Below, one piece after another: positions 10,104 through 60,685 of a stretch of 64,000 nucleotides of DNA (position 1 is its first letter; the number at the start of each line of letters is the position of its first letter). Where the stretch lies: positions 1 through 64,000 of the forward strand of contig NZ_SAUZ01000022.1 in the NCBI RefSeq assembly GCF_004022215.1, written 5' to 3'. A program made the position numbers and the translations under genes. Origin of the DNA: Paenirhodobacter populi (GTDB lineage Bacteria; Pseudomonadota; Alphaproteobacteria; Rhodobacterales; Rhodobacteraceae). The notes beneath the pieces are model-generated. The model was not told where the DNA came from. It worked only from the letters and a program-made list of their open reading frames with translations, and did not search any database.

Positions 10104-10163
10104 GCCGAGGTTGCATCGGCCCTTGAACAAGCGGCATTCCAGCGCCGCAACAAGATTGTCGGA

Positions 10164-25294: not shown

Positions 25295-25418
25295 AGGGCC
25301 GTTCCGGCGGCGCGGGCGGTCACATTTTCGCAAATGCAGAAATTTACCACGGCTTCGCTTTGTCTGGCGGTTAAACTGGGCTAATAGATCATGAATGCCT
25401 CCCCAGCCGGAAACCGTC

Positions 25419-27011
25419 ATGTCCGATACCAGTCTGCCTCTTTCGCGCGCCTCGATGCTTGGCCGGGTCGCGGGACCGTTCTGGTTGCTGATCGCGACCG
25501 CGGCGGCGCTCATCTATTTCCATGAAGGGTTCAATGCGCTTCTGGCGGCCTGGTCGACGCCCGAATACAGCCACGGCCCGGTCATTCCGCTGCTCTCGGC
25601 CTTCATGTTCCTGCAGGAGCTGAAATACGCGCCGATCCGCACCGGCCCGGTCAACCGCTGGCCGGGGATCGCGCTGCTGGTGTTTGCGATGGCGCTCGGC
25701 GCGCTTGGCAAGTTTTCCCAGATCGACGACGTGGTCGCCTATGCGATCATCCTCTGGGTGGGGTCGATGCTGCTGATTTCCTTCGGCTGGAACCAGGGCA
25801 GGCTTTTCTGGGTGCCGGTGCTGCATCTGGTCTACATGCTGCCGCTGCCGGGGGTGGTCTATTACAAGCTCTCGACCTTCCTGCAGGGCGTGTCGTCCGA
25901 ACTCGGCGTCTGGTTCCTGCATCTGCTGAACGTGCCGGTCTTCCTTGACGGCAATATCATCGACCTCGGCGTGCTGAAGATGCATGTGGCCGAGGCCTGT
26001 TCGGGGCTGCGCTACCTGTTCCCGATCATGTCGTTTTCCTACGTGTTTTCGGTGCTCTACCGGGGGCCGTGGTGGCACAAGGCGGTGCTGCTGCTGGCCG
26101 CCGCGCCGATCACCGTGCTGATGAATTCGGTGCGGATCGCGATCGCCGGCTGGCTGGTGCAATATCTGGGTGAAAGCCACCTTGAGGGGTTCCAGCATTT
26201 CTTCGAGGGCTGGGTGATCTTCATGGCCTCGGTCATCCTCCTGTTCGGCCTCGCCTGGGTGATGCTGAAGCTGCAGGACAGCACCATGTCCCTGCCCGAG
26301 GCGCTGAACCTCGATTTTTCGGGGCTCTGGCCGCAGTTCAAGCGGCTCGGTCTGGTCGAGCCGTCGAAGGGCATGATCGGCGCGGCGCTGATCCTGCTCG
26401 CCGCCGCCGCCGCTTGGGAACTGCGCCCGGTGCCGGAGCCGGTCGCGATCAACCGCGAGCCTTTCGCGCTGTATCCCCGGACGCTGGGTGAATGGCAGTC
26501 GCGGCCGATGGAACGGCTGAGCGATGCGGTGTCGCGGACGCTCGGCGCCGACGATTATTACGGTGCGAGCTTTTCCCGCAGCCCGAACGAACCCTCGGTC
26601 GAGTTCTTCTCGGCCTTCTACAAGGACCAGACCAAGGGCGGCACCCATTCGCCCGAGATCTGCCTGCCGAGCGCGGGCTGGGAAATCGCCCGTCTGGACC
26701 GGGTCGATGTGGGTCCCGAGCTGGGGCTGGGCGAACCCTACCGCCTGAACCGCGCGATCATCCAGAAGGGCGAGGCCAAGATGCTGGTCTACTACTGGTT
26801 CGAGCAGCACGGCCGCCATGTTGCCTGGGATTTCGAGGCGAAGCTGATGCTGCTGTGGGACGGCTTCACCATCCAGCGCACCGATGGCGCGCTGGTGCGC
26901 CTGACCACGGTGATCCTGCCCGGCGAGAACGAGGATCATGCCGAGGCGCGGTTGCAGGACATGTTCCTGAAGACCATCGCGGTGTTGCCGCAGTTCGTGC
27001 CGGGACGGTGA
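25419..27011 (+). CDS. xrtD: Exosortase (XrtD type) fused to EpsI domain
   Basis: Membrane transpeptidase-like enzyme that recognises C-terminal PEP-CTERM-like signals and attaches or processes exported proteins. It has 530 residues. The first 300 are eight or so helices with catalytic residues in order: Cys194 (EACSGLRYL), Arg239 (NSVRIAIAG) and His260 (FQHFFEGW). Residues 320-530 are an EpsI domain (GTHSPEICLPSAGWEI, YYWFEQHGRHV). In alphaproteobacteria, exosortase-EpsI fusions of this kind (XrtD) pair with VPLPA-CTERM substrates, five of which lie at 37.7-46.5 kb. I prefer the ATG at 25419; ATG 25395 is an alternative. It closes the TPR-export-barrel-rhomboid operon. Confidence 0.9.
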   Translation: MSDTSLPLSRASMLGRVAGPFWLLIATAAALIYFHEGFNALLAAWSTPEYSHGPVIPLLSAFMFLQELKYAPIRTGPVNRWPGIALLVFAMALGALGKFSQIDDVVAYAIILWVGSMLLISFGWNQGRLFWVPVLHLVYMLPLPGVVYYKLSTFLQGVSSELGVWFLHLLNVPVFLDGNIIDLGVLKMHVAEACSGLRYLFPIMSFSYVFSVLYRGPWWHKAVLLLAAAPITVLMNSVRIAIAGWLVQYLGESHLEGFQHFFEGWVIFMASVILLFGLAWVMLKLQDSTMSLPEALNLDFSGLWPQFKRLGLVEPSKGMIGAALILLAAAAAWELRPVPEPVAINREPFALYPRTLGEWQSRPMERLSDAVSRTLGADDYYGASFSRSPNEPSVEFFSAFYKDQTKGGTHSPEICLPSAGWEIARLDRVDVGPELGLGEPYRLNRAIIQKGEAKMLVYYWFEQHGRHVAWDFEAKLMLLWDGFTIQRTDGALVRLTTVILPGENEDHAEARLQDMFLKTIAVLPQFVPGR

Positions 27012-29263: not shown

Positions 29264-30430
29264 ATGAAAAGCTTCGCCACCATAGAATCCCTGCGCGGCT
29301 GGATGGCCTGGTGGGTTGTCGTCACCCATGCGCTGCAACTTCTGGGCGCGGGGGCGGGGCATGGCCCCATCGACCTGCTGCCGCGGCCGCTGCTGAATCT
29401 GGCGATGTCGGGGGATGCGGGGGTGATGGTCTTCATCATCGTCAGCGGATTCGTCATCACCCATCTGCTGATCTCCCGGCGCGAAAGCTATCCGGACTAT
29501 CTGCTGCGCCGGTTTCTGCGGATCGCGCCGGTCTATTTCGTCTGCCTGCTGATCGCGGTGCTGGTGATGGATCTGGCGCGGCTGGCCTATGCGGAAAGCC
29601 CCCTGCCGCTGCACCAATCCATGCGGATCGACCGTTTCGCGGCGGAAGAGGCGCATTTCACGACCCATCTGTTGCTGCATCTGAGCCTGTTGCACAGCGT
29701 CCTGCCCGACAGCTGGCTGCCCTATGCGGGCTCGGCGCTGCTGGCCCCGGCCTGGAGCCTGTCGCTCGAATGGCAGTTCTACCTGATTGCGCCGGTGCTG
29801 ATCGCGGCGGCGATGCGGTCGCGGTGGACGGTTCTGGCGCTGGCGGCGGGGCTGGTGGTGGCGAAGGCGGGGCTGCATCTGTCGGTTCTGCACTGGCGCT
29901 ACGAGGGGTTCTTTTTCCTTGCGGGCGATCTGTTCCTGATCGGCATCCTGTGCCGGCTGGCGCTGGAACGGATCCGCGCGGGGCAATCGGGGATGGGGCA
30001 TCTGCTGCTGGCCGCGGTGCTGATGGCGCAGACCGACCTCAAGGCGGCGCTGATCTGGGCCCTGTTCTTCGCGCTGACGCTGCGCGAGGCGGGGTTCCTG
30101 CCGTCCGGCCCGCGATGGGTGGCGGCGGCGCATCGGATGCTGGCGCTGAACCCGGTGACGGGGGCGCTCGGCCGCTGGTCCTATTCGACCTATCTGATCC
30201 ACATCCCGCTGTTTTCGCTGCTGGTCGGGCCCTATGTCGCGCAGGTGGGTGCGGCGGGCGTGTCGCAGATGGCGGTGGCGGGCATCCTGCTGGCCGGGAT
30301 GCCGCTTTTGGTGGCGGTGTCGGCGCTGCTTTACCGCTTTGTCGAGCTGCCGCCGATCCGTCTGGGCAAATGGCTGATCGCCGCGCGTGGGCGGCGGGCG
30401 CCTGCCGCAGGTGTCGTTCCGGCGGAATAG
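29264..30430 (+). CDS. Acyltransferase-3 family membrane protein
   Basis: A 388-residue integral membrane O-acyltransferase with about ten helices. It begins MKSFATIESLRGWMAWWVVVTHA, the family's N-terminal SLRG-x(n)-H motif, and carries VMVFIIVSGFVIT, LLRRFLRIAPVYF and AWSLSLEWQFYLIAP (family motif S-L-E-x-Q-F-Y). The closing helices end LLYRFVELPP. It lacks an SGNH domain, so it is the short form. The likely role is adding an acyl group to the EPS or its precursor. ATG at 29264 has GAGG upstream. Its stop is 1 bp from the stop of the convergent FrhB-family gene. Confidence 0.87.
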   Translation: MKSFATIESLRGWMAWWVVVTHALQLLGAGAGHGPIDLLPRPLLNLAMSGDAGVMVFIIVSGFVITHLLISRRESYPDYLLRRFLRIAPVYFVCLLIAVLVMDLARLAYAESPLPLHQSMRIDRFAAEEAHFTTHLLLHLSLLHSVLPDSWLPYAGSALLAPAWSLSLEWQFYLIAPVLIAAAMRSRWTVLALAAGLVVAKAGLHLSVLHWRYEGFFFLAGDLFLIGILCRLALERIRAGQSGMGHLLLAAVLMAQTDLKAALIWALFFALTLREAGFLPSGPRWVAAAHRMLALNPVTGALGRWSYSTYLIHIPLFSLLVGPYVAQVGAAGVSQMAVAGILLAGMPLLVAVSALLYRFVELPPIRLGKWLIAARGRRAPAAGVVPAE

Positions 30431-34659: not shown

Positions 34660-35817
34660 ATGCATGATACGGAATATGTCGTGCAAGGATGTCAGAGCCG
34701 ATTCGGGAAAGATGGTCAGGATATCGCGATGCCGGGTGCCGCGACGCGGAAGAACCAGATTGAATGGATCAATTCGATCAAGGGCGCCTGCATGGTCCTT
34801 GTCGTTTTCCTGCATGTCTCGCTTTGGGCGGATACGGCCTTCGGCCCCTCGACATGGAAGTCGGTCAGCCTGTTTCTCATCCCGTTCCGGATCCCGGTCT
34901 TTTTCGTGGTCTCGGGCATTCTGGCCGCGGGTTCGGTCATGCACAACCGTCCGAAGGCCATGCGCCGGGCGCTGAACATCTATTTCGTCTATCTGGTCTG
35001 GACGACGGTGGTCACGCTCCGGCTGCATGCCACGCCCGACCCGTCGGATGATCCGAACCTGATCGCCTATTTCACCAATGCCCTTGTGCCGGGGCATTAC
35101 TGGTATCTCTGGGCGCTGCCGGTCTATTATGGGGCAAGCATGATCATGCGGCGGATCCACGGGAACATGTGGCTGTGGCTGCCGGTGGCCTTCGGGCTGT
35201 ATGTCTTCGCCGCGCCGCTTGCGGATTTCATGGCCGGCGTCTTCTCGCAGCCCGCGGAAGTGCCGTATTGGGCCAAGACGATCTCCTGTTTCTGGTGGTT
35301 CTTTCTGGGGCTGTGCGCTGCGGGATCGCTGGTCGCCTTCGGTGGCGGCACGATCGGGCGCCCGGCGCTGCAATGGCTGAACCGGCCCCCGGGCCGGGCC
35401 GCCCTTGCGCTTTTCGCCGTGGCGGGGATCGCCGTGCTGTCGGTCTATCGGGTGGATCTGGCGGGGATGCGCGAGATGGCGGTCACCTTCTGCTATATCG
35501 CGATCGCCTTCACGGCTTTCCCCGCGCTGGCGGGCACCGGACCCGAAAGGGTTCTGGCGATGATCGGGCGGAACACCCTGCCGGTGTATATCTTCCACAA
35601 GCTCATCCTGATCGTGATCATGGCAGCGGAGAGCCGTATCCGCCTGCCGGCCACGGTTTCCTCCATACCTGTCGATGTGATCGTGACCGTGCTTGCCGTG
35701 GCGCTGATCGTCCTGTCGATCGGGATAGGGAGGCTGGTCAAGGCCTCGCCTTTCGCCTTTCTGCTCAACGGGATATTTCAGCCGCGCGGCAGTTCGTCCA
35801 AGACCGTATCGGCCTAG
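34660..35817 (+). CDS. Acyltransferase-3 family membrane protein
   Basis: A 385-residue polytopic membrane protein. After a hydrophilic start it reads IEWINSIKGACMVLVVFLHVSLW, with the family's conserved helix-1 histidine, then FRIPVFFVVSGILAAG, PGHYWYLWALPVYYGAS and NTLPVYIFHKLILI near the end, the usual N-x-L-P-V-Y-x-x-H closing helix. It belongs to the acyltransferase-3/OpgC-like group. It would decorate the EPS or a precursor. The start is uncertain: ATG at 34660 or at 34729, both in frame and neither with a strong ribosome site. Confidence 0.82.
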   Translation: MHDTEYVVQGCQSRFGKDGQDIAMPGAATRKNQIEWINSIKGACMVLVVFLHVSLWADTAFGPSTWKSVSLFLIPFRIPVFFVVSGILAAGSVMHNRPKAMRRALNIYFVYLVWTTVVTLRLHATPDPSDDPNLIAYFTNALVPGHYWYLWALPVYYGASMIMRRIHGNMWLWLPVAFGLYVFAAPLADFMAGVFSQPAEVPYWAKTISCFWWFFLGLCAAGSLVAFGGGTIGRPALQWLNRPPGRAALALFAVAGIAVLSVYRVDLAGMREMAVTFCYIAIAFTAFPALAGTGPERVLAMIGRNTLPVYIFHKLILIVIMAAESRIRLPATVSSIPVDVIVTVLAVALIVLSIGIGRLVKASPFAFLLNGIFQPRGSSSKTVSA

Positions 35818-46755: not shown

Positions 46756-48210
46756 TCAGCCCTTGGCGCCCTGTCCGCGGGAATAGACGTCCTCGTAGCG
46801 GATGATGTCGTCCTCGCCCAGATAGGTGCCGGTCTGCACTTCGATCAGCACCATCGGCACCTTGCCCGGGTTTTCCATCCGGTGCACCGCGCCGAGCGGA
46901 ATGTAGACGGACTGGTTTTCCGTCACCAGCTTCACCTCGTCGTCGATGGTGACGCGGGCCGTGCCCTCGACCACGATCCAGTGCTCGGAACGGTGGAAGT
47001 GGCTTTGCAGGCTCAGCGCGGCGCCCGGATGGACATGGATGCGCTTGACCTGGAAACGGTCGCCGATGACCAGGCTCTCGAACCAGCCCCAGGGGCGGTG
47101 ATCCATCGGGAACTGCGTCGCCTGCGCGGCCTGCTTGGCCTTCAGCGCCTCGACCGCCTTCTTGACGTCCTGCGCGCGCGACATGTCGGCGATCAGGACG
47201 GCGTCGTTCATCGCCACGGCGATGATGTTGTCGAGCCCGATCCCCACGACCTCGAGATTCGCGCTGTCCGACCGCAGCAGCGTGTCGGTGCAGTCGATCG
47301 CCGTCGCCGCGCCCGACAGGCCGACGCCGTTGTCGTCCTGCGTGCCTTCGCGCCAGACGGCATCCCAGCCGCCCAGATCCGACCAGCCCGCCGCGAAGGG
47401 CACGACCGACAGGTTCGGGGCCTTTTCCATCACCGCATAGTCGATGGAGATGTCTTTCGCCTGCTCCCACGGGCCGGGGGCGAGTCGCAGGAAGCCCAGA
47501 TCGGCCTGTGCTTCGTCCACCGCGGCCTTGACCGGGGCGCAGAGGTCCGGGGCATGGGCCTCGAAGGCCGCGACGATATCCTGCGCGCGGAACAGGAAGA
47601 TGCCCGCGTTCCACAGGTAGCTGCCGTCGGCCAGCATCTCGGCCGCGCGGGCCGCGTCGGGTTTTTCCACGAACCGGGCCAGCTTCACCGGCGCGCCGGA
47701 GCCGTCGGGCTGCGCGGTCAGCTCCAGATAGCCATAGCCGGTTTCCGCCCGGTCGGGCTGGATCCCGAAAGTGACGAGATTGCCGGCGGCGACCGCGGCC
47801 AGCCCCTGGGTCACCGCGGCATGGAAGGCCGCCGCATCCGGGATCACGTGATCCGAGGGCGCGACCAGCATCACCGCCCCGGGGTCGGTCTTCAGCAGGT
47901 GCAGCGCCGCCGCCAGAACCGCGGGGCCGGTGTTGCGGCCCTCGGGCTCGATGATGACCGCGCCGGGGTCGATGCCAACCTCGGCCAGCTGTTCGGTGAC
48001 GATGAAGCGGAAATCCGAATTGGTCAGCACCACCGGGGGCTGGAACGCCAGCCCGTTTTCACGTCCCGCCATGCGCAGCGCCGAAGCCTGGAACAGCGTC
48101 TGTTCGCCCACCAGACGGGTGAACTGCTTGGGATAGGACTTGCGCGAGAGCGGCCAGAGGCGGGTGCCGGACCCACCGGCGAGAATGACGGGAGTGATGG
48201 AGGATGTCAT
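46756..48210 (-). CDS. manC: Mannose-1-phosphate guanylyltransferase / mannose-6-phosphate isomerase
   Basis: Bifunctional ManC/AlgA-type enzyme that makes GDP-mannose and interconverts mannose-6-P and fructose-6-P. It has 484 residues. The pyrophosphorylase domain opens VILAGGSGTRLWPLSRKSYP; FVEKPDAARAAEML, then LWNAGIFLFRAQ, follow in the middle. The C-terminal cupin isomerase domain (about 350-484) has RPWGWFESLVIGDRFQVKRI and HFHRSEHWIVVEGTARV, with the metal-binding histidines and glutamate. It supplies GDP-mannose for EPS assembly. No phosphomannomutase gene is seen in the window, so that step may be chromosomal. Confidence 0.94.
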   Translation of the reverse strand: MTSSITPVILAGGSGTRLWPLSRKSYPKQFTRLVGEQTLFQASALRMAGRENGLAFQPPVVLTNSDFRFIVTEQLAEVGIDPGAVIIEPEGRNTGPAVLAAALHLLKTDPGAVMLVAPSDHVIPDAAAFHAAVTQGLAAVAAGNLVTFGIQPDRAETGYGYLELTAQPDGSGAPVKLARFVEKPDAARAAEMLADGSYLWNAGIFLFRAQDIVAAFEAHAPDLCAPVKAAVDEAQADLGFLRLAPGPWEQAKDISIDYAVMEKAPNLSVVPFAAGWSDLGGWDAVWREGTQDDNGVGLSGAATAIDCTDTLLRSDSANLEVVGIGLDNIIAVAMNDAVLIADMSRAQDVKKAVEALKAKQAAQATQFPMDHRPWGWFESLVIGDRFQVKRIHVHPGAALSLQSHFHRSEHWIVVEGTARVTIDDEVKLVTENQSVYIPLGAVHRMENPGKVPMVLIEVQTGTYLGEDDIIRYEDVYSRGQGAKG

Positions 48211-48327
48211 GGAACAACTGCTATGGATTGTTTACGGGAAGGACAACAGCAAAGGCGGGCTTTGTCCAGCCTCGACCTTGCTGCGGCGGCGGAAAACGGG
48301 TGCCTGTCCGCCGGGGAAGGCATCGGG

Positions 48328-50934
48328 TCATTGGAAGTACATCTGGTTGAGCCGCCGCATCCCGTAGCCGATCGCCGCCGCGAAAACCACCAGCGGCAGG
48401 GCCAGCGCCACAGGTCCCGGAAGCCCGGACAGAAGCAGCAGGTTCTTCAGCGGAATGACCAGTTCGTGCAGCGCGAAGACCGGCAGCGCCAGCCCCCCCA
48501 GCAGGATCAGCCCCCGCGCCAGCAGCTGCAGCGGCCCCGGCAGTTCCTGCCAGCGTTCCAGCGCCCGGACGGCGACCGCCAGCAGCAGCGTCGTGAACCC
48601 GGCATAGATCAGCGCGCCGAGCAGGCTGAACCACAGGGGATCCTCGCGGTTGATCAGCACCCCGGGGCCCTGGATCTCGATCAGCATCACCAGCCCGCAT
48701 CCCAGCAGCAGCACCCCGCCCAAGGTGGCCTGCCGGACAAAGCGGCGGATGTCCGTCGCCTGCATCATCCAGCTGCCAAGCGCGACCCCCGCCAGCACCA
48801 GCGCCATCATCGGCAGGTAGCTGTATTTCGCCACGATCACCAGGCGCGCCCATTCCAGCGGGTTTTCCCAGTGGTCATGGCCGATCAGCCGCTCGGCCAC
48901 CAGCCACAGCAGCCACAGCCCCGGGATCCCCACGGCGATCACCGGCAGGATGCGGCCATGCAGCAGGCGCAGCCACAGCGGCATGGTCGCCAGCGCCAGG
49001 AAATAGAAGCTGAGCACGTTGAAGAAGGCCTCGCCCCAACTCCGCCCTGTCAGCGGCAGGCCGTTGGCCGTTCTCAGGATCTGATAGATGAAGGCGATCG
49101 CCAGCATGGCCAGAAAGACGAACAGCAGCGAGAATTGCAGACGCCGCCGCACCGAAAAGCGGTTCTTCGGATAGCCGTCGAGCATGAAGCACGCGATGCC
49201 CAGCCCGAAGACGATCGCGAAGCCCGGCGTTCCCATGCGTGAAATGAAGGCCAGCGGGTCGTAATGCAGGCCCGGGACGGCACGCTCCCAGACCCCCGGC
49301 ATCCAGTGCGACATCAGCACCGTGATCACCATGAAGCCGCGCGCGACATTGACGCCCCAGCTCTTGACGGTGCGGGAGGGAAGGCCGGCGCCCTCGGCAG
49401 CGGGGCTGGTTTCACCCTCCGCCTCCAGCATCCGGGCAATGTCGGCAAGGCTGCGCCCCTCGAGCGTCGCGCGCACAACGGGGCGGGGGAAATGCGATTC
49501 CATCGCCAGGCCGATCTGCATCGCGCCAAGGGAATCGCCGCCGACATCGTAAAAGCCGCTTTCCGGGTGCAGATCCGCCGGCCCGAGGACGCTGCGCCAG
49601 ACTTCGGCGATGCGTTCCTGCGCGGGCGTGAGGCTGCTGTCCGCGGCCGCATCCGGGGTTCCGGACTGCGGCTGCGCGGGGGCCTCGGCGGTCCAGATCG
49701 CGCGCAGTTCCTTGCGCCGGATCTTGCCGGTTCCGGTGCGCGGCAGCTCTTCCACCGACAGCATGCGGATCTGCCCTGCGGCATGGATGCCGCGCGCCGC
49801 CAGCGCCTGCACCAGCGCCGCCTGCAACAGCCCCGCATGCGGCGCCGCCACCGTGTCATGCGCCAGCAGGATCGTTTCGCCGCGCAGCGGATCCTGCACG
49901 GAGCTGATGGCGAAATGCCCCGGCTCCAGCGTCACCAGCGCCGCCACCTCGGTTTCCATCGCCTCGGCCGAAAGCTTGATGCCCGACAGGTTGATCTGGT
50001 CGTCCAGCCGGCCGAGATAATAGAGCCAGCCGTCCCGCAATTCGCCCCGGTCGCGGGTGTGCAGCCAGCCGTCCGCATCGGCCAGCGGCACAAGCTCGCC
50101 CGCCGCCGACAGCATCCCCGTCGCCAGATGCGGACCGCGGATGCAGATCGCGCCCTCGTCGCCGATCCGTACCTCGGTCTGGCCCACCGGGCCGCCGACG
50201 CTTTCGAGAACGCCCTCATCCGCCTCGCTGATGACGAGGAAGGTCGAGCGCGAGGCCTCGGTCAGGCCGTAGTGCTGCACGATCCGCGCATTCGGGAACA
50301 TCCGCCGCAGGGCGAGCTTTTCCTCTGCGGACATGTATTGGCTGCCGATCTCGATCCAGCGCACCCGGCTGCCCAGGTCGCCCAGGAATTCCGGCCGCGC
50401 CAGCAGGATGCGCCACATGCTGGGCACGGCGGAAATGGCATTGATCTCGCCCGCCGCCAGCATGTCGCGGATCTCGACCGGATCGAACCGTTCGGGCAGG
50501 AAGAAGGCGCCCCCCGCCCGCGCCACCACCCGCGCCCGGCCGAGGCCGAAGGAATAGGTCACCGGCACGCCGATATATTCCCGGATCTCGTCCGTGATCC
50601 GCATGACCGACAGCAGCCGGTCCTCGACATCGGCAAGCGCCCTGCGGCTGAGCACGATCGCCTTCGGCTTGCCCTCGGTCCCCGAGGAGAAGACGACCTG
50701 CGCGGCCTCGTCCTGTCCGCCCGCCGCGGGCGGCGCAAGGGCGGGCCGCATCCAGCCATGTCCCGCGCCCACCTCGATCTGGCGCTCCACCTGCAACGAG
50801 GGGTAATCCGCCGGATCCGTTCCCGGCCGGCAGATCGCGAAGGGGACCCCGTCCGCATACAACCTGAATATCTCTTCGAGGAATTCGAGCGAATTCCGCG
50901 CGTCCAGAACGGTGATCTTGAGGGAGTAAGCCAT
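48328..50934 (-). CDS. Adenylation-carrier-membrane acyltransferase fusion protein
   Basis: A single 868-residue protein with three functions. (1) An ANL-type adenylation domain, residues 1-415: VVFSSGTEGKPKAI (core A3), QHYGLTEAS (A5), DGWLYYLGRLDDQINLSG (A7) and TGTGKIRRKEL with the catalytic Lys404 (A10). It lacks roughly the first 90 residues of a full-length domain. (2) A carrier domain, about 430-505, with YDVGGDSLGAM and phosphopantetheine site Ser468. (3) A membrane part, about 530-868, with some ten helices; RGFMVITVLMSHW and FALHELVIPL resemble acyltransferase-3. The natural reading is activation of an acid or amino acid, loading on the carrier, and transfer through the membrane to the EPS or a precursor, as DltA/DltC/DltB do for D-alanine. 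The substrate is unknown. Confidence 0.82.
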   Translation of the reverse strand: MAYSLKITVLDARNSLEFLEEIFRLYADGVPFAICRPGTDPADYPSLQVERQIEVGAGHGWMRPALAPPAAGGQDEAAQVVFSSGTEGKPKAIVLSRRALADVEDRLLSVMRITDEIREYIGVPVTYSFGLGRARVVARAGGAFFLPERFDPVEIRDMLAAGEINAISAVPSMWRILLARPEFLGDLGSRVRWIEIGSQYMSAEEKLALRRMFPNARIVQHYGLTEASRSTFLVISEADEGVLESVGGPVGQTEVRIGDEGAICIRGPHLATGMLSAAGELVPLADADGWLHTRDRGELRDGWLYYLGRLDDQINLSGIKLSAEAMETEVAALVTLEPGHFAISSVQDPLRGETILLAHDTVAAPHAGLLQAALVQALAARGIHAAGQIRMLSVEELPRTGTGKIRRKELRAIWTAEAPAQPQSGTPDAAADSSLTPAQERIAEVWRSVLGPADLHPESGFYDVGGDSLGAMQIGLAMESHFPRPVVRATLEGRSLADIARMLEAEGETSPAAEGAGLPSRTVKSWGVNVARGFMVITVLMSHWMPGVWERAVPGLHYDPLAFISRMGTPGFAIVFGLGIACFMLDGYPKNRFSVRRRLQFSLLFVFLAMLAIAFIYQILRTANGLPLTGRSWGEAFFNVLSFYFLALATMPLWLRLLHGRILPVIAVGIPGLWLLWLVAERLIGHDHWENPLEWARLVIVAKYSYLPMMALVLAGVALGSWMMQATDIRRFVRQATLGGVLLLGCGLVMLIEIQGPGVLINREDPLWFSLLGALIYAGFTTLLLAVAVRALERWQELPGPLQLLARGLILLGGLALPVFALHELVIPLKNLLLLSGLPGPVALALPLVVFAAAIGYGMRRLNQMYFQ

Positions 50935-51051: not shown

Positions 51052-51081
51052 GCGGCGGGGAGGATACCGTCTCCCCGCCGC
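51052..51081 (-). terminator. Hairpin after rmlA
   Basis: GCGGCGGGGAG (51052-51062) pairs perfectly with CTCCCCGCCGC (51071-51081) over an 8-nt loop, 5 bp after the rmlA stop. No T-run, but an 11-bp GC stem at an operon end is probably a terminator. Confidence 0.55.
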
Positions 51082-51086
51082 CGTGG

Positions 51087-51971
51087 TCATTGCGGCTTTT
51101 CCCGCAGCAGGCCGGCCAGATAGCGGCCGTAATCGGTCTTGCCGAAGGTCTTGGCGTGTTTGGCCATCAGCTCGTCGTCGATCCAGCCCTGCGCCCAGGC
51201 GATTTCCTCGGGGCAGCCCGACTGCACGCCCTGCCGCAGCGTCAGCGTGCGCACGAAATTCCCGGCGTCGAGCAGGCTTGCATGCGTGCCGGTGTCGAGC
51301 CAGGCATAGCCGCGCCCCATCTGCTCGACGTTGAGGGTGCCGTCCTGCAGGTAGCTTTCGAGAAGGGTGACGATTTCCAGCTCGCCGCGCGGCGAGGGCT
51401 TCACCGCCTTCGCGCGGGCGGGGGCCTCGCCGTCGAGGAAATAGAGCCCGGTGACGGCGTAGTTCGAGGGCGGCACCTCGGGCTTTTCGATGATCTCGCG
51501 CACGGTGCCGTCGCGGTCGAAGGCGACGACGCCGTAGCGTTCGGGATCGGCGACGCGGTAGCCGAAGACGGTGCCGCCGGTTTCCTTGGCATCCGCCGCC
51601 TTCAGCATCTTGGGCAGGTCATGCCCGAAGAAGATGTTGTCGCCCAGAACCATCGCCGAAGGCGCACCGGCGAGGAAATCCTCGGCCAGCAGATAGGCCT
51701 GCGCAAGCCCGTCGGGCGTGGGCTGGACGATCCAGGTCAGGTCCATCCCCCACTGGCTGCCATCGCCCAGAAGCCGCTGGAACTGCGCCTGATCGGCGGG
51801 GGTGGTGATGATCGCCACCTCGCGGATGCCGGTCAGCATCAGCACGCTGAGCGGGTAGTAGATCATCGGCTTGTCGTAGATCGGCATCAGCTGTTTCGAG
51901 ACCGCCATGGTCAGCGGATAAAGCCGCGTGCCCGAACCGCCCGCCAGAATGATGCCCTTGCGTTTCGTCAT
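51087..51971 (-). CDS. rmlA: Glucose-1-phosphate thymidylyltransferase
   Basis: First enzyme of dTDP-L-rhamnose synthesis: dTTP + glucose-1-P to dTDP-glucose. It has 294 residues. Signature motifs are GIILAGGSGTRLYPLT at the N-terminus, SKQLMPIYDKPMIYYPLSVL, MVLGDNIFFGHDL, EIIEKPEVPPSNYAVTGLYF and GRGYAWLDTGTHASL. Last gene of the rmlCBDA operon; its ATG overlaps the rmlD stop (ATGA). A hairpin follows its stop. In roseobacter biofilm plasmids the rhamnose operon is needed for attachment. Confidence 0.97.
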   Translation of the reverse strand: MTKRKGIILAGGSGTRLYPLTMAVSKQLMPIYDKPMIYYPLSVLMLTGIREVAIITTPADQAQFQRLLGDGSQWGMDLTWIVQPTPDGLAQAYLLAEDFLAGAPSAMVLGDNIFFGHDLPKMLKAADAKETGGTVFGYRVADPERYGVVAFDRDGTVREIIEKPEVPPSNYAVTGLYFLDGEAPARAKAVKPSPRGELEIVTLLESYLQDGTLNVEQMGRGYAWLDTGTHASLLDAGNFVRTLTLRQGVQSGCPEEIAWAQGWIDDELMAKHAKTFGKTDYGRYLAGLLREKPQ

Positions 51972-52822
51972 GCCTTGGCTCCCAGTTGCGTCAGGACATC
52001 GGCGAGTTCCGCCCGCCAGTCGGGCCGCTCGATGCCGAATACCTTGCGCGTCGTCGTGCAGTCGAGCCGCGAATTCGCCGGCCGTTTCGCCGGCGTCGGA
52101 TAGGCCGAGGTCGGGATGTCCTCGACCACCGTATCCCGGCCGGCCTGGGCGAAGATCTCGCGGGCGAAATCGGCCCAGCTCGCATCCGGCGCGCCGGAGA
52201 AATGATAGGTGCCGCCCTTGGACGGATCGGCGGCAAGCTGCCGGGCGATGGCCAGACAGGCTTCGGCGATGGCGCGGGCGGGGGTCGGCCCGCCGATCTG
52301 GTCGGCCACCACGGTCAGCCTGTCGCGTGTCTCCGAGAGCCGCAGCATCGTCTTGACGAAATTCGCCCCATGCGCCGAAAACACCCACGACGTGCGCAGG
52401 ATCGCATGGATGCCGCCCGCGTCGAGGACGCCCTGTTCCCCCGCAAGCTTGGACCGCCCGTAGGCGCCAAGCGGCGCCACCGGATGATCGGGCGCGAAAG
52501 GCGCGCTGCCGGTGCCGTCGAAGACGTAATCGGTCGAGATCTGCACGAAAGGCACGCCCAGTTCCGCCGCCGCCCGCGCCATGGCGGCGGGGGCCGCGCC
52601 GTTCACCACGGTCGCGGCCTCTTCCTCGGCCTCGGCCTTGTCCACCGCCGTCCATGCGGCGGCGTTGATGACGGCATCGGGGTGGATTTCACGGATCACC
52701 GCGGCGCAGGCCCCGGGATCGGTCAGATCGGCGCGATCGCGGCCAAGGAAGATCGCCCCCGGCTCCTGCGCGCGCAGTTCGGTGGCGACCTGACCGGTGG
52801 AGCCGAAAACGAGGATCGTCAT
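51968..52822 (-). CDS. rmlD: dTDP-4-dehydrorhamnose reductase
   Basis: Last step of dTDP-L-rhamnose synthesis: NAD(P)H-dependent reduction of dTDP-4-keto-L-rhamnose. It has 284 residues. The Rossmann motif is [26 protein letters not shown] and [14 protein letters not shown] (S-T-D-Y-V-F-D-G) follow; the active site Y-x(3)-K is [11 protein letters not shown], then [14 protein letters not shown]. Start ATG 52822 overlaps the rmlB stop, and its own stop overlaps rmlA, so the three genes are translationally coupled. Confidence 0.96.
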
Positions 52823-53868
52823 GCCTTCGTCCCCAGCCGTTGGCCGACGCCCGCGCGGTCTTGCAGCGCGCGCCACCAGGGCTCGTTGTCGAGATACCAT
52901 TGCACGGTCTTTTCCAGCCCCTCCTCGACCGTCACGGAGGGCTTCCAGCCGAGTTCGGCGCGGATCCGCGAGGGATCGATCGCATAGCGCGCGTCATGGC
53001 CGGGGCGGTCGGTGACGAAGGTGATCTGGTCGGCGTAGCTGCCCTGCGCCTTCGGGCGCTTGGCGTCGAGGATGCCGCACAGCGTCTTCACCAGTTCGAG
53101 GTTGGTGCGCTCGTTCTCGCCGCCGATGTTGTAGCTGCGCCCGACCTCGCCCTTCTGCACCACCAGAAGCAGCGCATCGGCGTGATCCTCGACGTAAAGC
53201 CAGTCGCGGATATTGGCGCCGTTGCCGTAGATGGGCAGCGGCTTGCCCGCGAGCGCGTTGAGGATGACGACCGGGATCAGCTTTTCCGGGAAGTGGAACG
53301 GCCCGTAGTTGTTCGAGCAGTTGGTCAGCACGACGGGCAGGCCATAGGTTTCATGCCAGGCGCGGACCAGGTGATCCGAGGATGCCTTCGACGCCGAATA
53401 GGGGCTGCGCGGATCGTAGGGCGTGTCCTCGGTGAATTTCACACTCGGATCGTCGGGCAGCGAACCGAAGACCTCGTCGGTCGAGATATGGTGAAAACGG
53501 AAAGCCTCCGGCTTGCCCCGCGCCGTCCAGTAGCGCCGCGCGGCCTCCAGCATGTTGAAGGTGCCGGTGATGTTGGTCTGGATGAAGTCGCCCGGCCCGT
53601 CGATCGAGCGGTCGACATGGGATTCCGCAGCCAGATGCATCACCGCATCGGGCCGGTGCTTGTCGAACACCGCGTCGAGCGCCGCGCGGTCGCGGATGTC
53701 GGCCTTTTCGAAGGCGTAATCCGGGCTGTCGGCCACCGAAGCGACGTTGTCGAGGCAGGCGGCATAGGTCAGCGCATCGAGATTGACCACCGAATGTCCC
53801 CGCGCGATCGCCAGACGGACGACGGCGGACCCGATGAAGCCGGCGCCGCCGGTGACGAGAAGTTTCAT
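52819..53868 (-). CDS. rmlB: dTDP-glucose 4,6-dehydratase
   Basis: Second step of dTDP-L-rhamnose synthesis: dTDP-glucose to dTDP-4-keto-6-deoxyglucose. It has 349 residues. [15 protein letters not shown] opens the NAD-binding fold; [15 protein letters not shown], the catalytic STDEVFG (Asp-Glu), [15 protein letters not shown] (Tyr-x(3)-Lys) and [17 protein letters not shown] are standard for RmlB. It starts 3 bp after the rmlC stop and overlaps rmlD by ATGA. Confidence 0.97.
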
Positions 53869-53871
53869 GGA

Positions 53872-54429
53872 TCAGGCCTCGTAGGTGAAGGGGCTGTCGA
53901 AATCGGCGAAGGCCTGTGCTTTCGCATCCTTGTCGGAAATGACCGGGTCGATGTCATCCACCGGCCATGCGATCCCGCAGCTGTCCCATCTCACCGCGCC
54001 GTCGCATTCGGGCGCGTAATGATCGGTGCATTTGTAGACAAGCTCGCTGTCGGGTTCGAGCGTCATGAACCCGTGCAGGAAGCCCGCCGGGATCCAGAGC
54101 TGCCGGCCGTTGTCGAAGCTCAGTTCCTCGCCCACCCATTGCCCGTAGGTCGGGCTGCCCTTGCGCGCATCGACGGCGACGTCAAAGACCCGGCCGCGGC
54201 CGCAGCGCACCAGCTTGCCCTGCGCATGGGGGGGCGACTGGAAATGCAGGCCCCGCACGGTGCCCACCTCGCGCGACAGCGAATGGTTGTCCTGCACGAA
54301 TTCCGGCAGGAACAGGCCTTCGGATTCGAGCTTCCGCTTGTTCCAGCTTTCCGAGAAGAAGCCGCGATGATCGCCGAAACGGGGCGGGGTGATGATGACA
54401 ACGCCGGGGAGAGCGGTGCTTTCGATCAT
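53872..54429 (-). CDS. rmlC: dTDP-4-dehydrorhamnose 3,5-epimerase
   Basis: Third step of dTDP-L-rhamnose synthesis, an epimerase with a cupin fold. It has 185 residues. Conserved motifs are FGDHRGFFSESWNKR, FVQDNHSLS, RGLHFQSPPHAQGKLVRC (catalytic His), VFDVAVDARKGSPTYG and WIPAGFLHGFMTL, all in the expected order. The ATG at 54429 gives the standard length. It is the first gene of rmlCBDA; the promoter should lie in the 228-bp divergent gap to the epimerase gene. Confidence 0.97.
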   Translation of the reverse strand: MIESTALPGVVIITPPRFGDHRGFFSESWNKRKLESEGLFLPEFVQDNHSLSREVGTVRGLHFQSPPHAQGKLVRCGRGRVFDVAVDARKGSPTYGQWVGEELSFDNGRQLWIPAGFLHGFMTLEPDSELVYKCTDHYAPECDGAVRWDSCGIAWPVDDIDPVISDKDAKAQAFADFDSPFTYEA

Positions 54430-54657
54430 GGTATCTGTAATCCAATCTGCCGTGTCCGGTCCCGCACCTTCTGGATGCGTCGCTCCGGCCCGGGCAAGGT
54501 GATCAATTTCCATGCGAAAGGCAACCGCAGCCGGTGATTTATTCCGGTTTGTGGACGGGATTTTCCCTGCCGCCCATACGGCGGGCAAAGTCTCCCCGGC
54601 TTGTCAGAAACCGCCATCGGGGCTATGGCCCGACCGGACCCATCGGAGCGACCAGAC
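54430..54657. promoter_or_regulatory. Divergent promoter region between rmlCBDA and the epimerase gene
   Basis: The 228-bp spacer contains the AT-richer segment 54530-54560 (GATTTATTCCGGTTTGTGG), the probable promoter area for one or both units. No clear operator seen. Confidence 0.35.
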
Positions 54658-55836: not shown

Positions 55837-57078
55837 ATGACCGAAAGCAAGCCCCCCATCGCCTATCTGACCGGGGAATATCCGAAGGTCTCGCATACCT
55901 TCATCCAGCGCGAGATCGAGGCCCTGCGCACCGCCGGCTGGCCGGTCCTGCCCTGCACCATCCGCCGCGCCGCCGCGAAGGACGTGGTGGGCGCGGCGCA
56001 GAAGGAAGAGGAAAAGCGCACCTTCGCGGTGATCGCGGCGGCGAAGAAGCCCGCGACGCTGTTGGGCGCGCAGATCTGGGCGCTGAAGACGGGGCGGTGG
56101 GGGCGCACGCTGAAGCTCGCCTGGAAGACCCGGCCGCCGGGGCTCAAGGCCGGGCTGTGGCAGATGTTCTACTTTCTCGAGGCCGCCGTGCTGGCGCGGC
56201 ATCTGGCAGCGCAGGGGGTGAGGCACATCCACAATCATTTCGCGGATTCGAGCGGCTCGGTCACCATGCTGACCGCCGAACTGGCGGGCATCCCGTTTTC
56301 CATGACGATGCACGGCCCGGCGCTGTTCTACGAACCGCGCTGGTGGCGGCTCGACGAAAAGACCGCACGAGCGGCCTTTGTCAGCTGCATCAGCCATTTC
56401 TGCCGCTCGCAGGCGATGTATTTTTCAAAGCCCGACTATTGGGACAAGCTGAAGATCGTGCATTGCGGCGTCGATCCGGCGCGCTACGGCCGGGCCGACA
56501 TCCCGCGCGGCAAGCGGCTGATCTTCGTCGGGCGGCTGGCCGCGGTGAAGGGGCTGCCGATCCTGGTCGAGGCCTTTGCCCGGCTGCGCGAACGCCACCC
56601 GGACGCGCATCTGTCGATCGTCGGCGACGGGCCGGAACGGAAACCGGCCGAGGCGCGGGTCGCGGGGCTCGGCATCGGCGATGCGGTCACCTTCCACGGC
56701 TATCAAAGCTCGGACGAGGTGTCGGAGCTGCTCGCGCGGTCGGATGTGATGGTGCTGCCCTCCTTCGCCGAGGGGGTGCCCGTCGTGCTGATGGAGGCGA
56801 TGGCCTCGGGCCTGCCGGTCGTCGCCTCGCGCGTGGCGGGGGTGCAGGAACTGGTGGATGACGGTGTGTCCGGCTATGCGGTGCCGCCCGGCGATGTCGA
56901 CAGCCTCGTCGCGCGGCTGGACACGCTGCTGGCCGATCCGGATCTGTGCGCGCGGATGGGGGCTGCCGGGCGCGCGAAGGTCGCGGCCGAATTCGACCAG
57001 GCCGCCGAGGCGCGCTGGCTGGAGCGGATCCTTTCGGGGAGCCTCGCCGGCAAATTGCCGGACGGGCTGCGACCATGA
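55837..57078 (+). CDS. GT4-type glycosyltransferase
   Basis: Cytoplasmic GT-B enzyme of 413 residues. The N-terminal half starts YLTGEYPKVSHTFIQREIEA, a signature of colanic-acid/EPS GT4 enzymes (WcaL/ExoL-like). The C-terminal half has LIFVGRLAAVKGLPILVEAF, LSIVGDGPE, then PSFAEGVPVVLMEAMASGLP with the E-x(7)-E pair, and VAGVQELVDDGVSGY. It would add a hexose to the repeat unit. Start ATG at 55837. Its stop overlaps the ATG of the following acyltransferase (ATGA), suggesting the two act on the same sugar. Confidence 0.9.
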   Translation: MTESKPPIAYLTGEYPKVSHTFIQREIEALRTAGWPVLPCTIRRAAAKDVVGAAQKEEEKRTFAVIAAAKKPATLLGAQIWALKTGRWGRTLKLAWKTRPPGLKAGLWQMFYFLEAAVLARHLAAQGVRHIHNHFADSSGSVTMLTAELAGIPFSMTMHGPALFYEPRWWRLDEKTARAAFVSCISHFCRSQAMYFSKPDYWDKLKIVHCGVDPARYGRADIPRGKRLIFVGRLAAVKGLPILVEAFARLRERHPDAHLSIVGDGPERKPAEARVAGLGIGDAVTFHGYQSSDEVSELLARSDVMVLPSFAEGVPVVLMEAMASGLPVVASRVAGVQELVDDGVSGYAVPPGDVDSLVARLDTLLADPDLCARMGAAGRAKVAAEFDQAAEARWLERILSGSLAGKLPDGLRP

Positions 57079-58118
57079 CGGCGCGGCGGGAACATCTGCG
57101 CTGGCCGGATATGGCCAAGGGGCTGGGGATTATCCTCGTGGTCTTCGGCCATTCCTGGCGGGGTCTGGAAATGGCCGGGCTCCTGCCCGACGGAGTGCTG
57201 TTCCGGGCGGTGGACGATGCGATCTATGCCTTTCACATGCCGCTCTTCTTCTTCCTGTCGGGGTGGTTCTTTCCCGGATCCCTGGCGCGGCTCGGTCCGG
57301 GGGAACATGCGCGGCGGATCTTCTGGCGGCTGTTCTATCCGATGTGTGTCTGGACCTATGTGTTCCTGGCGATGAAACTGCTGGCCGGGGATGGGGCGAA
57401 CAACGCGGTCGGGCCGGCGGCGTTGCTGACCTGGCCGGTGCCGGGACAGCTGCATCTGTGGTTCCTCTGGGCACTGATCCTGATCCAGGGCGTCGCGGTG
57501 CTGCTGCGCCCGATGGCCCTGCGCGGGATCATGCCGTTCTTCGCGATCATGACCGGATTGAGCGCGGCGCTCTGGCTGTCGGCGCTGGTACCCCCCGGAT
57601 CGGCATGGACGGCGGGGGCGATCCGCTCGGCCCCCTTCTTCTTCCTCGGCGGGCTGTGGCATCTGCTGGGCGATCTGCCCGCCTCGCGCCGGGCGGGGGC
57701 GCTGGCGGTCGTGGCCTTCGTTGCGGTCGAAGTGCTGGCGATCCGGCTGGAAGGCGGGGTGGCGGAGCATCTGCTGATCGCCACGGTCGCGGTGGTGGCG
57801 GTTCTGGTCATGGTCCGGGTCTGCGAGCCGCACGCGGGGGCGGCCGGACGGCTGCTTGTGCTGCTCGGACAATGCTCGATGACGATTTACCTGATGCACA
57901 CGATCTTTGCCGCGGCGATCCGCATCCTGCTGGCCAGAGAGCTGGGGATCGAGGCGCTGTTGCCGAATCTGCTGCTGACGGTGGCGGGCGGGCTGTTCCT
58001 GCCGCTGATGATCCATCTCGCGCCGGTACCGCCGGTGCTGCGCCGGGTCCTCGGCCTGCCGGAACAGCCGGTCCTGCGGCTGTTCCGACCGGCCGCGCCC
58101 GGCGCGATCGCGCACTAG
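57075..58118 (+). CDS. Acyltransferase-3 family membrane protein
   Basis: A 347-residue polytopic protein. It begins LRWPDMAKGLGIILVVFGHSW with the helix-1 histidine. YAFHMPLFFFLSGWFFPG follows, then LHLWFLWALILIQ and GQCSMTIYLMHTIF near the end. The H-M-P-L-F-F-x-L-S-G motif is typical of the EPS/Nod-factor acyltransferase group (NodX/YeaX-like fold). Translational coupling to the GT4 gene implies that it acylates the sugar that enzyme adds. The gene is convergent with the GT2 gene, 12 bp apart. Confidence 0.88.
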   Translation: MTARREHLRWPDMAKGLGIILVVFGHSWRGLEMAGLLPDGVLFRAVDDAIYAFHMPLFFFLSGWFFPGSLARLGPGEHARRIFWRLFYPMCVWTYVFLAMKLLAGDGANNAVGPAALLTWPVPGQLHLWFLWALILIQGVAVLLRPMALRGIMPFFAIMTGLSAALWLSALVPPGSAWTAGAIRSAPFFFLGGLWHLLGDLPASRRAGALAVVAFVAVEVLAIRLEGGVAEHLLIATVAVVAVLVMVRVCEPHAGAAGRLLVLLGQCSMTIYLMHTIFAAAIRILLARELGIEALLPNLLLTVAGGLFLPLMIHLAPVPPVLRRVLGLPEQPVLRLFRPAAPGAIAH

Positions 58119-59099: not shown

Positions 59100-59509
59100 C
59101 GAGGGTCCGGATCGCTGGGGAGGGCAGGCCCCCCGGAAAAAGTTCGTGTGCAGTTTCATCCATATGGAAGGTGCTGACAAGCATCTGTTGCCCGCAGGGC
59201 GCGCATGGCTGCCGATCAGCGTTCGGTGGGGTCAGGAATTATGAAACGCTTTTTCTTCTAATCACCCGGCCCGTTATTCGAAACGTGCCCATGGCGGACC
59301 CGCGGTCCGCTGTTTTCGGGACCGGATGACGGGCCGGTGGCCCGCGCGGCCATCGGCATCATTGAACCCGAAGACCACCGCATCTCCCGAAGGCTCCGGC
59401 CCGACGGCGGGGTCTCCGGGCGCGGAGTTCGCATGCTCCCGCATTCGTGACGATCCAGCAGTTTTCCATCATCCCCCAACGCCGGACCACCCCCGGCAAA
59501 GGAGTAGCC
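59100..59509. other. Intergenic region upstream of the 59510 operon
   Basis: A 410-bp spacer between divergent genes. The segment 59230-59275 is AT-richer and probably contains promoters. A hairpin with T-tract lies inside it (59294-59317). No gene seen. Confidence 0.4.
59294..59317 (+). terminator. Terminator-like hairpin in the leader of the 59510 operon
   Basis: GCGGACC (59294-59300) pairs perfectly with GGTCCGC (59304-59310), then TGTTTTC. It reads in the plus direction although no plus-strand gene ends before it, so it could be an attenuator in the leader of the following operon, or a stop for antisense transcription. Confidence 0.4.
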
Positions 59510-60685
59510 ATGACCTCATATCCGACCAGCCCGGTCGTGACCGGGCAGTCCCCCGACACCGCGCAGCCGCAGGCCGATCCGCCGGAGGAAAGCGTGACCA
59601 TCCGGGTCGCGGATGACGGCCGGAGCTTCGAGCTGACGGTCGCCGAAGGCACCGGCACGATCGGGATCAACGGGACGTCCTATGCCTTCGACACGGCGGA
59701 GATCATCGGCAAGGCCCCGGTGATTCTGGCCCCGCCGACGACCGCCGCCGCCCTGCCCGAGGATCTGGCCGAGCTGACCTCGGTGGACTATGTCACGGGA
59801 CCCTATCTTTACGATCCCGCGGGCGGGGAGCCGGTCGTCATCCTGCGCACGATCCGCGGGGACGAGATGCTGGACCTGGGGCCGGACTATGCGCCGACAC
59901 CCTTTGACCGGATCGCCGGCTTTTCGGTCCGGCAGGAGGTTGTGAACGGCTGGGGCGAGGGCACGGCAACATCCGAGGTCGTCGCCCCGGTCGCCCATGC
60001 CCCCGCCGTCCTGACCTTCACCAGAACCTCGGCGCTGCGAAAGGCGGACGGCATCCAGGCCGGAGGCGCCGATTCCGTCCTGATCGTCGCCAATACCGTG
60101 CTCGAGCGGCGGGGCGGCACCCTGTTCCGCGACCCGACGGGCGGGAAGCTGCGGGCCTATTTTTCCTCGGGCATGGGGCGGCTCTATGCGTCCAACCTGA
60201 ACGGCAACAAGCTGCTCAACTTCGACGGCTGGTTCAACACGGCCATAGAGATCGCGGAGGGGGACAACGTCTGTCTCATGCTCAACCTGCGGTCCTCGGG
60301 CTATGCCCAGGTGCAGAGTTATCGCAACGGGCAGGTGGTCGCCTCGACGAGCCGCACGATCGCCTCGGCGGCCGGAAAGATCGACACGAGCGTCATGCTC
60401 ACCATCGGCTACACCGATTTCGGCAGCTCGAAGGACTATTCCATCGAGGGCGGATATCAGGATTTCCGGATCTGGACAGATCTTGCCGAAGAGATCGACA
60501 TCTCCACCAGCAGCTTCGCTTACGCCTTCATGGATGAAACCGGCGCCGCGCGGAACCCCGCCCTCGCCAATGACCTGTTCGGCACGCCGCGGATCTGGCT
60601 GCCGACGGATCCGGCGCAGGCCAATGCGCTCGTCAATCTCGGGACCGCCGGGAACTTCACCGCCAAATCGGAGGAATTCGCATGA
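59510..60685 (+). CDS. Uncharacterised LamG-like protein
   Basis: A 391-residue protein without signal peptide. It starts MTSYPTSPVVTGQSPDTAQP with a proline/glutamine-rich stretch, then a short beta domain (about 35-70). From about 150 to 360 it reads as a concanavalin A/LamG-like jelly roll (VLTFTRTSALRKADGI, YSIEGGYQDFRIWTDLAEE). The ending DLFGTPRIWLPTDPAQANAL resembles phage-tail fibre or surface-binding proteins. The ribosome site is strong (AAAGGAG). Its stop overlaps the start of the glycosidase-like gene (ATGA), so the two proteins are made together and may form a complex. Probably EPS-binding; family not recognised. Confidence 0.6.
   Translation: MTSYPTSPVVTGQSPDTAQPQADPPEESVTIRVADDGRSFELTVAEGTGTIGINGTSYAFDTAEIIGKAPVILAPPTTAAALPEDLAELTSVDYVTGPYLYDPAGGEPVVILRTIRGDEMLDLGPDYAPTPFDRIAGFSVRQEVVNGWGEGTATSEVVAPVAHAPAVLTFTRTSALRKADGIQAGGADSVLIVANTVLERRGGTLFRDPTGGKLRAYFSSGMGRLYASNLNGNKLLNFDGWFNTAIEIAEGDNVCLMLNLRSSGYAQVQSYRNGQVVASTSRTIASAAGKIDTSVMLTIGYTDFGSSKDYSIEGGYQDFRIWTDLAEEIDISTSSFAYAFMDETGAARNPALANDLFGTPRIWLPTDPAQANALVNLGTAGNFTAKSEEFA

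Follow-up and report, generated by a model that had tools for sequence, protein, structure and literature searches.

The window analysed here, a stretch of 64,000 nucleotides from Paenirhodobacter populi (contig NZ_SAUZ01000022.1, positions 1 to 64,000), contains an exopolysaccharide (EPS) locus with a gene that joins an adenylation domain, a carrier domain and a membrane domain resembling acyltransferase-3 (AT3) in one chain (Table 1). A preliminary description, made from the letters alone, had reported a single protein of 868 residues with about ten membrane helices, placed between manC and the rml genes. The open reading frame (ORF), the Pfam matches and the predicted structure agree on these three parts, and manC and rmlA do lie on either side on the same minus strand. 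The existence of the protein is thus confirmed. The codon positions of the ORF have a GC content of 0.70/0.46/0.88, the bias expected of a real gene, and chance is excluded because 78 other full-length members of the family keep the same domain order.

The gene is a component of an exosortase/EPS locus, with exosortase, export and sugar-nucleotide genes alongside. The exosortase XrtD is the only PF09721 match in the genome. Four VPLPA-type proteins are encoded in the locus, three of which pass the TIGR03370 cut-off. The export genes comprise Poly_export (Wza), a Wzc-like protein (GNVR just below cut-off), a flippase-like protein and a TPR protein; WecG-type and pyruvyl transferases, ManC, Ugd and RmlA are also present. 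The protein is probably, at moderate confidence, an AT3 acyltransferase that depends on its carrier and adds acyl groups to an exosortase-type EPS.

Table 1. Features of the fusion gene and its neighbours (window positions). Statements cited by PMC number, here and in the text, rest on portions of those papers.
Feature	Position	Strand	Basis
Adenylation-carrier-AT3 fusion gene, 868 amino acids	48328..50934	-	ORF, Pfam, relatives, full-length model
Adenylation (ANL) domain, residues 1-415, N-terminally short	49690..50934	-	Pfam, fold, motifs in 79/79
Arg133, predicted lining of the acid pocket (Phe129-Gly130-x-x-Arg133)	50536..50538	-	Arg in 79/79 members, 0/5 control ligases
Arg229, second predicted pocket Arg, just after YGLTEAS	50248..50250	-	Arg in 79/79 members, 0/5 control ligases
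Lys404, A10 catalytic lysine	49723..49725	-	Invariant
Carrier domain (PP-binding, PF00550), residues 440-503	49426..49617	-	Pfam E 1.1e-9
Ser468, predicted phosphopantetheine attachment site (GGDSL)	49531..49533	-	Invariant in 57 rows
Predicted ten-helix membrane acyltransferase domain (AT3/TmAT fold), residues 518-868	48331..49383	-	pLDDT 94.1, HGSNAT ranks 1-7
Arg532 of R-X10-H	49339..49341	-	Motif equivalent of OafA/OafB Arg14 (PMC7448272, PMC9833829)
His543 of R-X10-H	49306..49308	-	Motif equivalent of OafA/OafB His25
manC (mannose-1-phosphate guanylyltransferase/isomerase), directly downstream	46756..48210	-	Pfam
rmlA	51087..51971	-	NTP_transferase (Pfam)
rmlD, rmlB, rmlC	51968-54588		Named from sequence, not from family models
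VPLPA-CTERM-specific exosortase XrtD, same EPS locus	25395..27011	+	TIGR04152, 614 bits vs cut-off 400

Relatives were sought in 248 genomes of the window's bacterial family (E<1e-90), where close relatives occur in seven, the window's own genome included. With a limit of E<1e-40, relatives were detected in 1/385 genomes of the class sample, 2/398 of the phylum sample and 1/18 of the genus sample, again counting its own; two or three candidates were scored per genome in the family, class and phylum searches. Relatives thus occur sporadically. When GTDB contigs were scanned with a profile, 156 stretches matched; 140 of them encode relatives, and 80 of these were kept. The assembled set holds 86 proteins, 79 of them of at least 780 amino acids, including that of the window. 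Near-duplicates (L055/L056 and L091/L092) stay among the 79, with L036 and L042 dropped as copies of L105 and L098. The recurrence of the three-domain order, which the preliminary description proposed to look for, is thereby found in 79 full-length members, from Rhodobacterales, Methylophaga, Chlorobium, cyanobacteria and others. A curiosity confined to Rhodobacterales was ruled out by relatives in Chlorobiota, Cyanobacteriota, Planctomycetota, Myxococcota and Gammaproteobacteria. The nearest relative, L043 from a Rhodobacterales metagenome-assembled genome, has 79% identity in the adenylation domain and manC directly downstream too. A His-Trp motif, not a tree, was used to label members as the window's type or a second sequence group; L038, L040, L041 and L070 fell in the second.

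The adenylation and carrier domains

The AMP-binding profile (PF00501) matches residues 55-273 with E 1.3e-26 over positions 151-382 of 384, the first part of the profile being missing. The motif patterns A3, A5, A8 and A10 occur in all 79 full-length members, and Lys404 is invariant in a 57-row alignment, as is Asp295 of A7. This bears out the earlier assignment of an ANL adenylation domain with Lys404. The window protein does not contain a complete N-terminal ANL subdomain. Residue 152 of MatB (4fuq) aligns with window residue 72, so the shortening described earlier is real, at about 80 residues and not the 90 then given. A wrong start codon or a truncated gene was ruled out as the cause, as 73-93 residues precede motif A3 in 78 of the 79 members. 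The exception is L083, with 52 residues before A3 and an ambiguous residue in its start. The short N-terminus is a trait of the family.

The positions of the substrate pocket were set by the A4 and A5 motif anchors, which we take to be those of the nonribosomal peptide synthetase (NRPS) code. PheA residues 235, 236, 239, 278, 301, 322 and 330 correspond to F129, G130, R133, S168, I196, H221 and R229 of the window protein. Five of these (F129, G130, R133, I196 and R229) are identical in all 79 members, with S168 kept in 78 and H221 in 77. The control for this pocket is small, an ORF having been recovered by motif in only 5 of the 20 control loci. In ordinary adenylation domains, Asp235 holds the alpha-amino group of the substrate. 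With the assumed anchors, Phe129 occupies this position in 79/79, and because the aspartate is missing an ordinary alpha-amino acid is unlikely as substrate. Arg133 and Arg229 suggest that the substrate acid bears a further group of acidic or polar character. The preliminary description had allowed an activated acid or an amino acid; the two arginines and the absent Asp235 argue against an ordinary alpha-amino acid. It had also expected an unusual pocket, which the same residues support. The missing N-terminus does not appear to be its cause, since the pocket positions come after A3 and are present.

The full-length model has a mean predicted local distance difference test (pLDDT) score of 89.5 and a predicted template modelling score of 0.57. 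Its best structural match is the A-PCP didomain of McyG (4r0m), and entries of MenE and MatB, whose substrates are acids with two carboxyl groups, are in the top ten. Pfam leaves the C-terminal third of the protein without any match and finds no condensation domain. No NCBIfam model reached its cut-off among the best 25 of 93 matches. The three best models are acyl-CoA ligases, the second being TIGR03098, the exosortase A system acyl-CoA ligase (97 bits, its cut-off being 592); fourth comes TIGR01733, the model for amino-acid adenylation.

These results bear on a true Dlt- or Alm-like aminoacylation, whereby an amino acid would be activated, possibly via its side-chain carboxyl, and the AT3 domain would aminoacylate the polysaccharide. 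The adenylation-carrier architecture, the peptide-synthetase didomain as best fold match and the TIGR01733 match all speak for it. TauD-type enzymes can hydroxylate carrier-bound amino acids, and genes for such oxygenases lie 4-40 bp upstream in six loci; gamma-glutamyltranspeptidase genes adjoin three relatives of the second group. Set against this are Phe129 at the Asp235 position throughout the family and the acyl-CoA ligases that head the NCBIfam matches. Aminoacylation is rather unlikely on this balance.

The PP-binding profile is matched in all 57 members scanned, and a GGDSL-like carrier site is present in 79/79. The carrier with Ser468 in GGDSL, as first described, is upheld by the Pfam match and by the invariance of this serine. 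A phosphopantetheinyl transferase (PPTase) gene is adjacent in five relatives (L064, L067, L072, L081 and L089); that of L064 ends at the start of the target ORF and that of L089 is convergent. In L037 a PPTase gene lies 5.6 kb from the target gene, and all six match PF01648. Two results from the window's own genome run counter to a charged carrier: an Sfp-type PPTase was not found with one Chlorobium query, an empty answer that proves little, and the single PF01648 match is AcpS-like. The preliminary description had spoken of a self-contained system. Activation, carriage and transfer do come together in one chain, in that adenylation, carrier and AT3-fold parts are found in it, with carrier loading and transfer being predicted; the system is not fully self-contained, as the carrier needs a PPTase, next door in five relatives.

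The membrane domain and its acyl donor

The structure prediction proposed as a check yielded, beside the A-PCP match of the whole chain, a predicted TmAT fold for the membrane part. In the model of residues 518-868 we counted ten long membrane helices, the ninth of which is bent. In a Foldseek search of the PDB, ranks 1-7 are chains of human HGSNAT at a probability of 1.00 (E 0.017-0.05), and the next match is a transporter at 0.33. Entry 8jkv is named as HGSNAT in PMC12423673, where the TmAT fold is described as common to HGSNAT and AT3. The R-X10-H motif of the first helix (R532/H543) is present in 78 of the 79 full-length members. This motif is reported as absolutely conserved in AT3 (PMC9833829) and as essential in OafA, where the R14A and H25A variants gave 0.07% and 0.33% of the wild-type signal (PMC7448272). 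The FxxxxG of the second helix corresponds to F572 and G577 in the window protein.

Of the 48 membrane parts belonging to the window's type, 9 match Acyl_transf_3 (E up to 0.1), and no other Pfam family has more than one match among them. Acyl_transf_3 is matched in 15/57 proteins of one set and in 7/10 of another, seven of those ten proteins not being of the window's type, and never in the window protein. When PDB sequences were searched with a profile of the membrane part, just two matches came up, both irrelevant (E 0.46). The membrane part is predicted to have the fold of the AT3/TmAT superfamily, and the likeness to acyltransferase-3 seen at the outset is supported by both fold and R-X10-H motif. 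An identity with DltB and the MBOAT family was ruled out by the TmAT fold indicated by the HGSNAT matches.

A transporter unrelated to acyltransferases, named beforehand as the outcome contrary to the preliminary description, did not emerge, and this identity is extremely improbable. It could draw on several results that also weigh against an acyltransferase: the membrane part of the window protein has no Pfam or NCBIfam match, PF01757 included, and no PDB fold match by Foldseek at E<0.001. A profile-profile comparison of 48 family membrane parts with nine ordinary AT3s reached only 18.5% probability over 48 columns. Against these stand the lead of HGSNAT over the best transporter, the R-X10-H motif and the Acyl_transf_3 matches, and the transporter identity was rejected on the first of these.

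Ordinary AT3 enzymes take their acyl group from acyl-CoA (PMC9833829, PMC12423673), and their handling and movement of the donor is described as largely unknown (PMC9833829). AT3 proteins carry an RXXR motif at the third helix; in simulations of OafB its second arginine, Arg74, binds the 3′-phosphate of CoA together with Arg14 (PMC9833829). The CoA-site motifs were compared by regular expression between the fused AT3 domains and 30 ordinary AT3s, taken from the 62 places that 41 genomes of the window's bacterial family yielded. R-X10-H had been used to find the ordinary domains and was hence left out of the comparison. RXXR followed by proline occurs in none of the 78 fused domains vs 26 of the 30 ordinary ones. 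With or without proline, RXXR is present in 20/78 vs 28/30, and the aspartate of DxxR in 1/78 vs 26/30. The window protein itself has no RXXR. Among 14 stand-alone AT3s from the relatives' own loci, each of the three features is present in 12. Fisher tests give p ~1e-19 for the DxxR aspartate and ~4e-21 for RXXR with proline, values that overstate the difference as the rows are related.

A carrier-bound donor presents 4′-phosphopantetheine and no adenosine 3′-phosphate, so erosion of the CoA site would be expected from a switch from CoA to the fused carrier. The loss of RXXR with its proline would fit a donor supplied by that carrier and not by acyl-CoA, the OafB site being known from simulations and not from structures.

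The same motifs also offer something to a rival account, in which the AT3 domain still uses free acyl-CoA, the adenylation-carrier unit serves another step and the fusion only co-localises the two. Two points count against the carrier as donor here: Arg532, whose motif equivalent in OafB contacts CoA, is retained along with His543, and RXXR without proline survives in 20/78, so the CoA site is not lost everywhere. Acyl-CoA is, besides, the donor of the ordinary enzymes. This account is nevertheless quite improbable. It is opposed by the loss of the DxxR aspartate and of RXXR with proline relative to the 30 ordinary AT3s, by the lack of a second transferase in the chain, and by locus L099. There, the ORF at 9989-12148 keeps the adenylation-carrier unit fused to an EpsC/CysE-like hexapeptide acyltransferase (below the cut-offs of those models) in place of AT3, an independent instance in which the unit has an acyltransferase as its partner.

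Neighbourhoods and variants of the relatives

The link to EPS was assessed with 17 marker proteins from the window (tblastn at E 1e-10, covering 40% of each marker). For the window's type, loci were counted if they were at least 13 kb long; seven shorter ones and L056 were left out. The ORFs of the loci were clustered and representatives of the main clusters were named by NCBIfam or Pfam. At least two EPS markers are present in 29 of the 41 loci of the window's type vs none of 20 control ligase loci, in which no marker of any kind was detected. An exosortase is found in 18/41. Counted by order, the exosortase neighbours are from Rhodobacterales (13), Thiotrichales (4), Oceanospirillales (1) and Emcibacterales (1). 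In Methylophaga sulfidovorans (L078) a co-directional run consists of GT2, two EpsC-like genes, GT2, the target, GT2, GT4, a WecG-type gene, an exosortase, a PrsT-type gene and a ManC-like gene. The window's type is associated with exosortase/EPS loci.

The picture is less favourable elsewhere. Ten of the 41 loci have no EPS marker and two have only one. In the second sequence group, at least two markers are present in 3/24 loci and an exosortase in 1/24. The 20 controls, hand-chosen among the generic-ligase rows of the family genome search, all come from the window's bacterial family; the 41 loci are drawn from several phyla. The EPS link drawn by the preliminary description therefore stands for the window's own type (29/41 vs 0/20) and not for the family as a whole. 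In smaller classes, at least two markers were found in 2/3 multi-carrier loci and in one of the three long loci among five with truncated ORFs; the three loci without an intact ORF have one marker each and none has two.

It is on these figures that a lipid or small-molecule acceptor has to be judged. The enzyme would be unchanged but would act in an NRPS-like secondary metabolism, its place in EPS loci being incidental or secondary. The second group, which has the adenylation-carrier unit and R-X10-H yet few EPS markers, and the 12 of 41 loci of the window's type with fewer than two markers are what one would then expect. Repeated embedding in long co-directional exosortase/EPS runs across several orders, as in L078, and the absence of any marker from the 20 controls count against it, and such an acceptor is considered unlikely.

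Several variants of the gene and its surroundings were also observed. The TauD-type oxygenase genes stand on the same strand as the target in all six loci (L037, L095, L098, L099, L103 and L116), and a seventh in L077 is 5.3 kb away. The four that were scanned, in L042 (the copy of the L098 locus), L103, L095 and L099, all match PF02668. Three or four carrier sites in tandem are present in L037, L098 and L103; together with the upstream oxygenase, this gives the impression that several acyl groups are carried or altered at the same time. The oxygenase gene of L099 lies 40 bp upstream of the hexapeptide fusion. The relatives adjoined by a gamma-glutamyltranspeptidase-type gene are L033, L120 and L121, the gene being identified by Pfam in L120 and by annotation in L033.

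Proposed mechanism, known systems and the wider locus

For a carrier-dependent AT3 enzyme acting on EPS, the following sequence of events may be envisaged. A host phosphopantetheinyl transferase would place the arm on Ser468, in keeping with the PPTase genes next to five relatives. The short ANL domain, with its core motifs intact, would then activate a small acid with ATP and load the arm. This acid would probably be anionic or polar, given Arg133 and Arg229. At the AT3 domain, the loaded arm of the same chain could take the place of acyl-CoA by entering through the cytosolic opening; in sequence, R-X10-H is kept there and the RXXR for the CoA 3′-phosphate is degraded. The pore of this domain may then give the acyl group passage to the outer face, where a hydroxyl of the rhamnose/mannose/uronate EPS, or of a lipid-linked precursor, would receive it; AT3 biology and the gene context point to this last step.

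In a broader form, a widespread class of AT3 enzymes would have given up acyl-CoA. A fused, self-charged carrier would feed the pore, which would allow acids with no cellular CoA ester to reach surface polysaccharides, and in the tandem-carrier variants a dedicated TauD-type oxygenase would modify the bound acid. The chances of this broader proposal are evenly balanced. Should it be true, polysaccharides could also be decorated with acyl groups for which no CoA ester is at hand, and the gene would be a marker for carrier-fed decoration in exosortase EPS loci. A natural fusion with a tethered donor and an apparently eroded CoA site is also a clean test case for telling residues that serve CoA from those that are catalytic.

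Some known systems share parts of this design. The epsilon-poly-lysine synthetase is a single-module NRPS in which membrane helices follow the adenylation and carrier domains in one chain. The domain order is alike; the window protein differs in that Pfam finds no condensation domain in it and that its membrane part has a predicted acyltransferase fold. The TIGR03098 ligase is similarly an AMP-forming ligase tied to exosortase loci, but its model describes a ligase of 517 positions, and the carrier and AT3 domains fall outside it. The AT3-only and AT3-SGNH acyltransferases (PF01757; OafA, OafB, OatA) share the ten-helix TmAT fold, R-X10-H and the FxxxxG of the second helix. The fusion has N-terminal adenylation and carrier domains where AT3-SGNH proteins have a C-terminal SGNH domain; unlike ordinary AT3s it is without RXXR-Pro and the DxxR aspartate, and the fused carrier, not acyl-CoA, is presumed to donate the acyl group. 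The architectures named in the consulted portions of PMC7448272 and PMC9558356 are AT3-only, AT3-SGNH and AT3-racemase, with adenylation-carrier-AT3 not among them. No description of the latter was found in the literature searched, which consisted of portions of open-licence PMC papers.

The Dlt-like character suggested by the preliminary description holds in logic but not in homology. DltA, DltC and DltB, which D-alanylate teichoic acids, likewise combine ANL activation, a carrier that holds the residue and a multi-helix membrane acyltransferase. They are separate proteins, and DltB is an MBOAT (PMC3783018) and not of the AT3/TmAT fold predicted here; nor is the amino-acid aspartate shared. 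AlmE, AlmF and AlmG, responsible for glycylation of Vibrio lipid A, are a Gram-negative case of surface decoration by activation, carriage and transfer, again as separate proteins, with an LPLAT domain in AlmG (PMC3783018). The fusion is Dlt- or Alm-like in logic, with a transferase that is not homologous.

GC-rich hairpins flank the fusion gene at 51052-51081 and 48247-48283 (fold z about -2, no obvious T-run). The first of these separates the gene from rmlA, so that the two may not share a transcript, a point that counts against the proposed EPS role. Four ordinary AT3 genes, one of them AT3-SGNH, are located at 3076-4986, 29198-30430, 34660-35817 and 56946-58118, and a separate MBOAT gene at 32983-34431. 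With so many acyltransferase genes in the locus, acyl groups of several kinds may be attached to this EPS. Two large plus-strand ORFs (412 and 951 amino acids) at 59447-63537, on the border of the locus, are without a Pfam match up to E 0.1. A rhombosortase-like protein (24629-25294; TIGR03902, 45 bits vs a cut-off of 84) is encoded directly before XrtD, so that two sorting-type enzymes adjoin. A RepA-like plasmid partition gene in mid-locus (11089-12975; 197 bits, below the cut-off of 348) suggests that the locus may reside on a repABC replicon.

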